Part shown: positions 316-9,630 of the stretch, piece by piece
Layout: the number at the start of each line of letters is the position of its first letter
How positions within the stretch are numbered: position 1 is the stretch's first letter
Origin: a virus
DNA: 28,771 nt
Reading direction: 5' to 3' (one strand)
Virus record (IMG/VR): IMGVR_UViG_3300046011_001507
Location: 1-28,771 of that record
Made by a program: the position numbers and the translations under genes
Notes under the pieces: model-generated
What the model was told of the DNA's origin: nothing
What the model saw: the letters and a program-made list of their open reading frames with translations, nothing else
The model's database searches: none

Positions 316-1698
316 TTAAAAAGCGTCTGTAAGAAAAGAATTATTTGGGGTTAACCCTGAATTATCCGAATCAATGTCGTAGAACTTAGTGGTGCTTCCG
401 ATGAACCCGACGTTAACAGTGCCTACCGCTCCGTCACGATTCTTAGCAATAATCAGTTCAGCTTTACCTGATGTGCTGTTGCCGTTTTCGTCCGCTGTGA
501 TGCCGTAGTATTCGGGGCGGTGTACAAACATCACTATATCCGCATCCTGTTCGATCTGCCCTGATTCCCGAAGGTCGGAAAGTATCGGGCGCTTATCCCC
601 TCCGCGTTTTTCGTTTTCACGGGACAGCTGAGCCAAAGCCAATACGGGGCAGTCGCACGTCTTACTGATCTCTTTCAGTCCACGCGATACGTCCGCTATC
701 TGTTGCTCCCTGACCTTAATGCTAGGGTCGGACTTGACTAATTGAAGGTAGTCCACAATCACCAACATTTCCCCGTGCTTAGCTTTGAACTGTAAAGCCT
801 TTGCCTTCATATCGTCAATGCTGATCGGTGACTGATCGTTAATAAATAGCGGCATTTTGCGTATATGATCACGTGCCTGATCAACGGTTACAATCTCATA
901 CGGTGAAAGGGTTGCCAGTTTGTACCTATACCCATCTATCCCAGATTCCGTTACCACCATCCGCTGCGTTATCTGAGCCTCCGACATTTCGATACTGAAA
1001 AACAGGGTCGGTATTCCTGAGTTCATAGCGAAGTGTTCAGCTAGGGCGGTCTTACCCATCGACGGGCGACCTGCTATAATCACTAGGTTAGCCTTCTGCC
1101 ATCCTCCCGTTATTCTGTTAACCTCTTTTAATCCCGTTTTAATCCCCGTAGGTATGCCTTTGTTCCGTGCGTCCGACCTCCGATCGTACTGTTCCTGATC
1201 GCGTTTTATAGCCTCTGCGATGTGTACGTAGTCCTTCCCTTTCAACCCTGTTTTCAGTACGAAATCGTAAAGACCCTTTACCGATAACCGCACATCCTGA
1301 ACCGTTGCGGAATCCTGAGTGCAACGCTGTATTAACTTCTGTGAATAGTCCGTGACATAACGCATGATGTACTTTTCCATCAGGTATTGACACAGCATAT
1401 CCACGTTAGCGGAGTAGTTGAAGTTTGCCGCCAGTTCGGATATGTATATCACCCCTCCTGCGTCATCCAGATACCCGTCCTGCTTTAACCGCTTCACCGT
1501 CGTAACCATATCAATCGGATTGCCGTCCTTTTTGATTCGGTGGAAAGTTTGCCAGATTAAAGCATTCTTTGGCACATAGAAGGCACTTTCGGTAATTTGT
1601 GGGGCTATGGTATCAAACGCGCCTTGAATCGCTAAAACAGCCCCTAAAATGGTTTTTTCAATTTCCGCGTCTTGCGGTGCTAGTTTGTCCTCGATCAT
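316..1698 (-). CDS. replicative DNA helicase, DnaB family
   Basis: This is a ring helicase that would unwind the phage replication fork. With the start used here it has 460 residues, typical for DnaB. The N-terminal domain (PQDAEIEKTILGAVL, near residues 9-22) is followed by a RecA-fold C-terminal domain: Walker A GRPSMGKT at about 210-217, the catalytic glutamate of SIEM at about 237, Walker B VIVDYLQLV with Asp near 316, and the ALAQLSRE motif at about 355-362. An upstream in-frame ATG at 1722 would add eight residues. I prefer 1698 because it forms an ATGA overlap with the methyltransferase stop and places the conserved PQDAEIE segment near the N-terminus. It sits next to a DUF1376 replication protein, a common pairing in phages that load their own helicase. 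No primase domain is visible. Confidence 0.93.
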   Translation of the reverse strand: MIEDKLAPQDAEIEKTILGAVLAIQGAFDTIAPQITESAFYVPKNALIWQTFHRIKKDGNPIDMVTTVKRLKQDGYLDDAGGVIYISELAANFNYSANVDMLCQYLMEKYIMRYVTDYSQKLIQRCTQDSATVQDVRLSVKGLYDFVLKTGLKGKDYVHIAEAIKRDQEQYDRRSDARNKGIPTGIKTGLKEVNRITGGWQKANLVIIAGRPSMGKTALAEHFAMNSGIPTLFFSIEMSEAQITQRMVVTESGIDGYRYKLATLSPYEIVTVDQARDHIRKMPLFINDQSPISIDDMKAKALQFKAKHGEMLVIVDYLQLVKSDPSIKVREQQIADVSRGLKEISKTCDCPVLALAQLSRENEKRGGDKRPILSDLRESGQIEQDADIVMFVHRPEYYGITADENGNSTSGKAELIIAKNRDGAVGTVNVGFIGSTTKFYDIDSDNSGLTPNNSFLTDAF

Positions 1699-2474
1699 AG
1701 CTTCGTGTGATTTTTTATACATTCAAAAAGATAGTACCCGATAAAAGGGACTATTGCATTGCCTAAACCCGCCAATCTGTCCACCATTTCGGATACCCCA
1801 TCAATATTTCCACAAAGTAGGGGTTCGGCAATAATGTCTTGTCCTTCACTTCCCCATTGTTCGTGTCTAAATACCATTTTTTCAGTGTCCAAGCTAAATT
1901 CGCTCCGAATCTCACGCCACTTTTTCGGGTCTTTAAACCCTTCCACATCAATAAAGGCGTTTCCCATCCCTCTTGAAAACTTACTGTGTGTGTTGGAGTA
2001 GGCAATAATGTATATTCGTTCTCGTCTATGTCGGAATCCAAAGGTTGTAGCTGATAAACATTGCCATTCCGCATCATACCCGATTTCGGAAAGATCGCAT
2101 AAGACTCGTTCAAGTCCTCGAAAAGTAAGGTTTGGGCTGTTTTCAATGATGATGTACTCAGGTCTAACTTGCCCCACAATGCGATACATTTCGCCCCATA
2201 ATCCTGAACGGTGTCCTTTAATTCCTTTGGCTTTTGTGTTTGCCCCCGAAATATCTTGACAAGGAAAACCTCCGCTGATGATGTTAACTTTTCTGGGATT
2301 TGCGAGTGTTCTGATGTCTTCATATTGTTTAGTATTTGGGAATCTATGATTTAAAAGTTTTCTATTCCATTGATTTATTTCGCAATTCCAAAGCGTTGGA
2401 ATACCTGCCCATTCTGCTCCAAGCTCAAAACCTCCAATACCTGAAAATAAACTTCCGTGTGTCATGTCAATCAT
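1695..2474 (-). CDS. DNA (cytosine-5) methyltransferase
   Basis: The product would transfer a methyl group from SAM to C5 of cytosine in phage DNA, most likely to escape host restriction. The family motifs appear in order: motif I FSGIGGFELG (10-19), motif IV GGFPCQDIS with catalytic Cys72, motif VI ENSP (111-114, a variant of ENV), motif VIII RHRRERIYI (149-156) and motif X GLGNAIVP (236-243). At 259 residues it is short, and the target-recognition stretch between motifs VIII and X is only about 80 residues. The target sequence cannot be read from it. Start and stop both form ATGA overlaps with the neighbouring replication genes, so it is translationally coupled. No cognate restriction enzyme is visible. 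Residues 51-237 are overprinted in the +1 frame by a second open reading frame (see 1763-2323). Confidence 0.93.
   Translation of the reverse strand: MIDMTHGSLFSGIGGFELGAEWAGIPTLWNCEINQWNRKLLNHRFPNTKQYEDIRTLANPRKVNIISGGFPCQDISGANTKAKGIKGHRSGLWGEMYRIVGQVRPEYIIIENSPNLTFRGLERVLCDLSEIGYDAEWQCLSATTFGFRHRRERIYIIAYSNTHSKFSRGMGNAFIDVEGFKDPKKWREIRSEFSLDTEKMVFRHEQWGSEGQDIIAEPLLCGNIDGVSEMVDRLAGLGNAIVPFIGYYLFECIKNHTKL
1763..2323 (-). CDS. overprinted ORF nested within the C5-methyltransferase gene, 186 aa
   Basis: A 186-codon frame lies wholly inside the methyltransferase gene, in the +1 frame on the same strand. Unlike an ordinary shadow ORF, its translation looks like a protein family I remember from phages, often found beside or within cytosine methyltransferase genes: SLKTAQTLLFEDL at 59-71, FPKSGMMRNGNVYQLQPL at 78-95, LLPTPT at 106-111 and NPYFVEILMGYPKWWTD at 167-183. 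I do not know its function. Two readings are possible. It may be a real overprinted gene, perhaps a methyltransferase partner. Or its similarity to relatives may merely reflect conservation of the methyltransferase codons, since LLPTPT is read across the codons for the IYIIAYSNT stretch. The ATG at 2323 has no obvious ribosome-binding site. The length of the open frame and the familiar motifs favour a real product. Confidence 0.5.
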   Translation of the reverse strand: MKTSEHSQIPEKLTSSAEVFLVKIFRGQTQKPKELKDTVQDYGAKCIALWGKLDLSTSSLKTAQTLLFEDLNESYAIFPKSGMMRNGNVYQLQPLDSDIDENEYTLLPTPTHTVSFQEGWETPLLMWKGLKTRKSGVRFGANLAWTLKKWYLDTNNGEVKDKTLLPNPYFVEILMGYPKWWTDWRV

Positions 2475-7976: not shown

Positions 7977-8483
7977 GTGAGCCGCAACGAAACGATACAA
8001 CGCCTTTACACCGACGCGAAAATACGCGACGCAGCGAGGTATCTGGCAGGGGCAGAGTGGCACGACGTACTATCAGAAGCCATAACACGTATCTGTGAAC
8101 TACCCGATGAAAGATTCAACGCCATCACATCTATCAACAACTTCGCATTTATCACCATGCGAAACATCGTCGTTGACATTCAACGTAAGCGCCTCGATAC
8201 GGTACGAATATCAGAAGACTATACCGAAACAGAACACGACTATCAACCCGACGTACTACTCGATACCTTCAAACAGTATTGCTACAAAACAGCCAACCAA
8301 CACCCTTTGGAATCAGTTCGGCTTATGGCAGATGTGGTGTATCACTACCTCACATACACACCTACAAAGCGACGATCCACGCGGGATTTTTCAGCGCAGA
8401 CCAAAATAGACTATTCCACGATTTGTAATTACATCAGAGAAATACGCAAGAGATATGAAGATAGCGTTGATAATGGACGGTGA
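7977..8483 (+). CDS. sigma-70-like (ECF-type) transcription factor of phage origin
   Basis: Residues about 25-75 have the look of sigma region 2: AEWHDVLSEAITRICELPD, then FAFITMRNIVVDIQRKR, comparable with the DLVQE..R....A.N...D..R.R pattern of ECF sigma factors. Residues about 135-160 (STRDFSAQTKIDYSTICNYIREIRKRY) form a helix-turn-helix like region 4. At 168 residues it is ECF-sized. The start is GTG at 7977, right after the previous TGA. It precedes the late-strand genes and could direct RNA polymerase to phage promoters. The sequence is divergent, so it may instead be a sigma-related regulator. It overlaps the first glycosyltransferase by 29 bases. Confidence 0.6.
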   Translation: MSRNETIQRLYTDAKIRDAARYLAGAEWHDVLSEAITRICELPDERFNAITSINNFAFITMRNIVVDIQRKRLDTVRISEDYTETEHDYQPDVLLDTFKQYCYKTANQHPLESVRLMADVVYHYLTYTPTKRRSTRDFSAQTKIDYSTICNYIREIRKRYEDSVDNGR

Positions 8484-9630
8484 ACGTGAAGACGGACGGG
8501 CAAAGCCTCAGCACGGCATGGACTGGTATCGTTTGCTGATGCCTTACTTCGGTGTGGAGGGTCATGAGGTTACGGCTGTGTCACGGTCTGAGTTCGACAT
8601 TAACCCTTTGGATGCGGACGTGTATGTTATCAACCGTTCCCGTGAGTTGTTCCGTGCGGAGCGTGTGAAGAAAGAAGGTAAGAAGCTGATCGTTGATATT
8701 GATGATTACTGGGTTTTGCCTACGTGGCATAAGTTGCACCTGAAAAACCTAGAGCATGAGTTGGAGTACGGTTTGAAACACGGAGCGCCTGAACAGTTGA
8801 TCACAGAGCGTCGTAAACTGATCGCCATTGAACGCAACGCGGCTAGCAATACGATTGCCTCAATGCGCCTTGCGGATGCCGTAACGACAACGAATGAGCA
8901 ATTAGCAGAGCGGTGTTTGAAGTACAATAAAAACGTTCATATTGTCCGCAACAGCATCCATCCGCAGTTTTCACAATATAGCCTGAAAAAGCAGCGATCA
9001 AACCGTTTGAGGTTCGGGTGGTTAGGTGGTAGCTTTCACCTTCGGGATGTTGCGTTAATGCACGATGGGATCATGAAGTTGTACCGCGATTCTGAGGAAA
9101 GGGGTCGATTTCAATTCCTTTCATCATACGGGGCGAATTTTGAGTACATGGAGATCGAAAAGATCATGACGGCTAACTATGCAGCGGTGTCACCTGAGTA
9201 TCGGGAGTTGTTGCGGTCAAACTTCCGCGTCGCTGAACACATGGGATTGCATGAGAACTACCGTAGACTGTGGAGTGTACCCGTTCATGAGTTCGGTACA
9301 ATGTATGAGAATCTTGACGTGGCGTTGATTCCGTTGGTTCACGGGGAATTTAATTCATGCAAGTCTGAGTTAAAGCTAGTGGAAGCGGGAATGACGGGAA
9401 CGGCTACTATTGTGTCGGACGTGTTGCCTTACAGTAAGTGGTTAAAGCATGGGAAGAACTGTTTAACGACAGAGGGCGTGAACAATTGGTACAGCGCATT
9501 TAAGATGTGCCTGAATAATCCTAGCCTAGTGGAAGACATTCGCGACGGGTTAGCGGAAACAGTGGACAAGCATTTCAACAATGCCGATCAGGCGAAAGTA
9601 ATCGAAAACATAATTGAATCATGGAAATAG
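8455..9630 (+). CDS. glycosyltransferase, GT-B fold (GT4-like)
   Basis: The 391-residue length and layout fit a two-domain GT-B enzyme that transfers sugar from a nucleotide-sugar donor. The N-terminus starts with a Rossmann strand (MKIALIMDG), a KLIVDIDDYW segment follows near 81-90, and the donor-binding region lies at about 285-325: LDVALIPLVHGEFNSCKSELKLVEAGMTGTATIVSD. The SELKLVEAG core corresponds to the E..L.E.G pattern of GT4 proteins. It is the first and only GT-B member of the cassette; the rest look GT-A. It begins inside the sigma-like gene and ends overlapping the next gene by ten bases. Donor and acceptor are unknown. Confidence 0.82.
   Translation: MKIALIMDGEREDGRAKPQHGMDWYRLLMPYFGVEGHEVTAVSRSEFDINPLDADVYVINRSRELFRAERVKKEGKKLIVDIDDYWVLPTWHKLHLKNLEHELEYGLKHGAPEQLITERRKLIAIERNAASNTIASMRLADAVTTTNEQLAERCLKYNKNVHIVRNSIHPQFSQYSLKKQRSNRLRFGWLGGSFHLRDVALMHDGIMKLYRDSEERGRFQFLSSYGANFEYMEIEKIMTANYAAVSPEYRELLRSNFRVAEHMGLHENYRRLWSVPVHEFGTMYENLDVALIPLVHGEFNSCKSELKLVEAGMTGTATIVSDVLPYSKWLKHGKNCLTTEGVNNWYSAFKMCLNNPSLVEDIRDGLAETVDKHFNNADQAKVIENIIESWK

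Follow-up and report, generated by a model that had tools for sequence, protein, structure and literature searches.

Does the open reading frame nested in the +1 frame of a phage C5-cytosine methyltransferase gene encode a second protein, or is it merely a by-product of strong codon constraint on the methyltransferase? The question is raised by a viral genome record, IMG/VR IMGVR_UViG_3300046011_001507, whose entire stretch of 28,771 nucleotides (hereafter the window) was analysed and which carries DnaB, primosomal, terminase and tape-measure genes, as well as a glycosyltransferase-like gene at 8455-9630 (phrog_7162, 6e-42). The original prediction described a 186-codon frame whose four peptides were taken to mark, in that order, a phage protein family accompanying C5-methyltransferases, noted that the methyltransferase frame is intact too, and left the choice between a true overprinted gene, maybe a methyltransferase partner, and a codon by-product. 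We confirmed that this observation is correct. The ORF starts with ATG, lies +1 to the intact methyltransferase ORF, and contains the four peptides at residues 59-71, 78-92, 106-111 and 167-183. The methyltransferase (alpha) matches Pfam PF00145 with an E value of 6.9e-36, although only over profile positions 2-176 of 324, and has the PCQ, ENS and motif VIII arginine signatures. The +1 ORF (beta) has no family in Pfam or NCBIfam but matches phrog_1008 (E 1.1e-13), as do all 25 members of our beta alignment, so the family that had been invoked does exist. What had been missed is that the methyltransferase frame has no motif IX, while the +1 frame does. The features of the locus are collected in the table below.

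Table. Features of the alpha and beta frames, in coordinates of the window
Positions	Strand	Feature	Evidence
1695..2474	-	alpha: C5-cytosine methyltransferase ORF, 259 aa, motifs I-VIII and X	Pfam match; AF2 model confident for residues 1-194 and 243-258; Foldseek match to the HhaI catalytic domain
1763..2323	-	beta: nested +1-frame gene, 186 aa, phrog_1008 family	profile match; open frame beyond synonymous shuffles; dual-frame constraint
2321..2323	-	probable beta start codon ATG	conserved in L015, L016 and L141 with an A/T-rich leader
2427..2456	-	alpha motif I (GSLFSGIGGF)	motif location
2247..2273	-	alpha motif IV with the catalytic cysteine (GGFPCQDIS)	motif location
2127..2150	-	alpha motif VI (IIENSPNL)	motif location
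1998..2042	-	alpha motif VIII region (FGFRHRRERIYIIAY)	motif location
1716..1775	-	alpha motif X (LAGLGNAIVPFIGYYLFECI)	motif location; confident helix in the AF2 model
1764..1892	-	alpha residues 195-237, predicted disordered, the stretch where a small domain would be	pLDDT below 50; beta-type substitution pattern across the VIII-IX region of relatives
2111..2149	-	beta conserved N-module part 1 (SLKTAQTLLFEDL)	beta alignment; motif location
2048..2092	-	beta conserved N-module part 2 (FPKSGMMRNGNVYQL), opposite alpha GYDAEWQ	beta alignment; motif location
1991..2008	-	beta LLPTPT element, repeated in longer relatives; start of the inferred target-recognition region	beta alignment; motif location
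1775..1825	-	beta motif IX (NPYFVEILMGYPKWWTD), absent from alpha	beta alignment; frame comparison among relatives; alignment to HhaI through L199

We first examined whether the +1 frame stays open in homologues more than expected by chance, a comparison that had been named in advance as able to overturn the idea. To avoid choosing the sample for beta, we fetched relatives (designated below by L numbers) with the alpha protein only. In all 28 loci with a recognisable alpha, the +1 frame was open for 100-292 codons, longer than in synonymous-codon shuffles of the same gene (P at most 0.038 each, mostly 0 of 500), and the +2 frame showed no such excess. For the window, whose stop-free stretch is 195 codons, 0 of 5000 shuffles reached this length. 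A second, profile-based alpha scan gave 80 more loci, of which 76 had P at most 0.05. A beta profile matched in +1 in 80 of these 80 loci and in 31 of 31 of the first set, although the second scan used the peptides GYDAEWQ and GGFPCQD, the first of which lies opposite the beta motif SGMMRNG. In sharp contrast, the profile matched in 0 of 27 loci of the ordinary single-chain Dcm family.

We next sought to examine whether the beta protein itself is under selection, for which synonymous-site conservation had been put forward as a test. Similarity in +1 between distant relatives exceeds what the alpha proteins and codon usage give, with a median z of 3.9 against 1.8 in +2. Between the window and L015, alpha is 81% and beta 78% identical. 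Four-fold degenerate sites are 0.744 identical inside the overlap and 0.373 outside, in the same direction in every listed pair. Over 751 pairs of 90 sequences the values are 0.539 against 0.321; since loci and pairs are not phylogenetically independent and pairs share sequences, pooled p-values are only indicative. The window alone gives p = 8.9e-5, 1.0e-4 and 0.015 against L015, L016 and L141, respectively. A comparison with synonymous rates of flanking genes between the window and L015 or L016 yielded nothing, as only the overlapping pair is shared there.

To see which frame codes for which part, we split the gene by landmarks in 25 pairs and compared substitution rates at the three alpha codon positions. 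Before beta, substitutions fall in alpha third positions (.20/.14/.51), whereas in the core overlap both frames are constrained (.22/.14/.33). Between motif VIII and motif IX the free position becomes alpha position 1 (.42/.25/.25), which is the third position of beta codons, and beta-frame identity (.64) exceeds that of alpha (.49). After beta, the alpha pattern returns (.26/.14/.54). So alpha is the main frame for motifs I-VIII and X, and beta for the region between. Together with the shuffles, these results meet the criteria of a genuine overlapping gene pair.

What, then, does beta supply? C5-methyltransferases need motif IX just before motif X, and alpha has the latter only, while beta ends in motif IX. 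Three natural arrangements show what this element is. In the window and most loci, IX is in beta and X in alpha; in L168 and the actinophages L007, L008 and L012, both are in beta; in L199, L205, L094 and L096, both are in alpha and beta stops before them. Of 138 loci, 118 had IX in beta with X in alpha, and none had IX in both frames. In L199, the alpha frame carries LNPDWVEWLMGYPISW directly before motif X and reads ERLNPDWVEWLMGYPISWTDGGSRMQRLMALGNSVVP, which HMMER aligns to HhaI 270-318, the segment running into GNSVV; Pfam then matches nearly full length, positions 2-322 of 324. Through L199, the beta motif IX corresponds to HhaI 270-290. This HhaI alignment is a weak second domain of about 6 bits, whose weight rests on its position next to motif X. 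Likewise, phrog_116 matches alpha cores and beta tails in one profile. A direct profile search of the PDB with beta returned, among methyltransferases, only a chance-level hit to plant DRM (E = 1), and a phmmer search with an actinophage beta found nothing relevant.

The structural predictions are consistent with this division. The alpha model matches the HhaI catalytic domain over about 170 residues, and with its disordered VIII-X stretch alpha lacks a small domain. Beta alone is poorly predicted (mean pLDDT 49, too poor for a fold search), its motif IX helix being the best part, which fits an obligate partner but proves nothing; no model of the alpha-beta complex was obtained. Regarding the start of beta, in-frame ATGs preceded by ribosome-site-like sequence occur in 41 of 83 loci against about 13.5 expected under synonymous shuffling. 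No Shine-Dalgarno is visible in the A/T-rich leader of the window's own beta ATG, which is usual for Bacteroidota.

Taken together, we conclude with high confidence that the locus is best read as one split, obligately two-subunit C5-cytosine methyltransferase from two overlapping frames, in which alpha is the catalytic large domain with the motif X helix, and beta, started at an internal ATG, supplies the target-recognition region, motif IX, and an N-terminal module of its own overprinted on the alpha core. In this view, the two would assemble into one enzyme that protects the phage DNA. Our analysis demonstrates that beta is under protein-level selection, that motif IX is missing from alpha and present in beta, and that beta is the main coding frame between motifs VIII and IX; we infer that beta is translated by internal initiation, that the pair assembles, that both are needed for methylation and that beta sets sequence specificity; there are no expression, proteomic or activity data. 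We could not assign a role to the beta N-module opposite the catalytic core, but it is kept even when motifs IX and X are in alpha, so it is probably part of target recognition or assembly. The original interpretation of a true overprinted gene that may be a methyltransferase partner is thus strongly supported, with two corrections: the partner family is not a free-standing one, every member examined overlapping a C5-methyltransferase in +1, and a nested second subunit, which had been suggested to be new biology, is not wholly so, M.EcoHK31I having the same division of motifs.

The other readings fare much worse. That the open frame is a by-product of the methyltransferase protein and codon usage is very unlikely. 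Some +1 similarity is indeed automatic, because conserved beta motifs lie opposite conserved alpha motifs (GFPCQDIS, GYDAEW, IIAYSNT), and the +2 frame also shows a small excess in similarity; yet shuffles that keep the alpha protein and codon usage reproduce neither the open frame nor its similarity, third positions are twice as conserved inside the overlap, alpha is the less conserved frame in the VIII-IX region, and the Dcm controls show nothing. We regard this reading as refuted by the shuffles and the codon-position test.

A programmed ribosomal frameshift after motif VIII, making one fused enzyme with no separate beta start, is unlikely as well. It draws on L168 and the actinophages, where the alpha frame ends after motif VIII while motifs IX and X lie in +1, so that a single shift would make a complete enzyme. 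However, the beta frame is open and constrained well upstream of motif VIII, with the recurrent ATGs described above, and in the window's arrangement one shift cannot give a complete enzyme; two opposite shifts would be needed. Equally unlikely is that beta is translated and selected for a separate function, such as a regulator or counter-defence protein, with alpha a complete enzyme alone. The retention of the beta N-module in L199, L205 and L094 does indicate that beta does more than carry motif IX, but motif IX is never present twice, the window alpha lacks motif IX and a small domain, and no beta without alpha was found.

Among described systems, M.EcoHK31I has motifs I-VIII and X in the larger subunit and only motif IX in the smaller one (PMC3404938), and the window shares this split. 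Its small subunit, of about 176 aa, is read from another frame inside the large one, both being needed in vitro (Lee et al. 1995), and M.EaeI is also a two-polypeptide C5-methyltransferase of this kind. The nested position of beta inside alpha is found here too. The window differs in being a phage orphan enzyme with no restriction gene recognised next to it, in belonging to a series in which motifs move between frames, and in the likely home of the recognition domain, which selection places mainly in beta, whereas the larger subunit of M.EcoHK31I is assigned it, itself a prediction (PMC3404938). Sequence homology to M.EcoHK31I was not tested; an E. coli search with DNA found other members, not M.EcoHK31I. 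In M.AquI, motifs I-VIII are in one polypeptide and IX and X in the other (PMC3404938), as in L168, L007, L008 and L012, but in the window motif X stays in alpha and beta is nested deep inside alpha in another frame. HhaI, HaeIII and Dcm carry all motifs in one frame, and alpha matches their catalytic domain. phrog_1008 is the beta family itself, and its annotation as DNA methyltransferase is by association, the catalytic motifs being in the other frame of the same DNA. Literature searches found no description of this family; a hidden HNH gene in an actinophage methylase insert (PMC11855218) is a different thing.

We then asked how widespread the pair is and whether beta ever stands alone. Records include Bacteroides, Porphyromonas, Vibrio, Acinetobacter, Microcystis, Mycobacterium and Streptomyces phages, plasmids of Nostoc, Leptospira and Bacteroides, and Klebsiella, Salmonella, Xanthomonas and E. 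coli phages or prophages, where the match to the beta family is more distant. In 369 gammaproteobacterial genomes, 13 matched phrog_1008. Standalone relatives, whose absence had been listed beforehand among the signs against a real gene, were not found among 44 viral loci retrieved with the beta profile, 8 genome loci or 12 gammaproteobacterial genome loci; those examined overlap a C5-methyltransferase in +1, and L106 appears to be a false hit. What is new here is the breadth, covering well over a hundred genes in phages and prophages of Bacteroidota, Proteobacteria, Actinobacteria, Cyanobacteria and Spirochaetes, the exchange of motifs IX and X between frames, and the lack of any standalone beta found. 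It is about as likely as not that a large class of phage and prophage C5-methyltransferases across several phyla are obligate two-frame heterodimers, whose target-recognition domain was moved into an overlapping frame, whose beta has not escaped because the two chains assemble from the same message, and whose motifs IX and X have been passed back and forth. If true, this would be among the largest conserved families of nested overlapping genes in tailed phages, and present annotation shows half of each enzyme.

Long same-strand overlapping genes in bacteria and their phages are rarely proven and are generally dropped by annotation, while here the same pair recurs in hosts of several phyla, with an interpretable division of labour and natural frame swaps that act as controls. 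Since records mostly list alpha alone, half of the enzyme, probably the half that sets specificity, is missing, and cloning alpha alone could give an inactive protein. Members in Klebsiella, Salmonella, E. coli and Mycobacterium phages or prophages make the pair directly testable. In L007, L008 and L012, annotators split the loci into two overlapping 'DNA methylase' genes, the second being the beta frame with its start called too late to include the conserved N-module. In Microcystis phage Mwe-JY08 (L003:392-652), the deposited gene is a fragment of the beta frame and the alpha methyltransferase is not annotated at all.

In L017:1534-1956, a near relative of the window, both frames are interrupted (alpha stops at 1956, beta at 1870), possibly a decayed copy or a sequence error, and an E. 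coli prophage copy of the methyltransferase (L233:2374-3135, E. coli PCP07014) is annotated as a pseudogene with an internal stop. In L093:2174-2899, one open frame begins as alpha (to GGFPCQDLSIAN) and continues as beta, either an indel or assembly error or a natural frame fusion, whereas the near relatives L095 and L097 keep the two frames apart. The beta frames of L041 and L030 carry several WPTPTA-type repeats opposite repeated residues in alpha, and the copy number differs between relatives and may reflect modular target recognition. In Klebsiella phage vB_KpnS_ZX4 (L238:1577-2923), the beta frame runs on without a stop into the annotated endonuclease VII gene (2480-2926, same frame), so beta may be fused to that nuclease.
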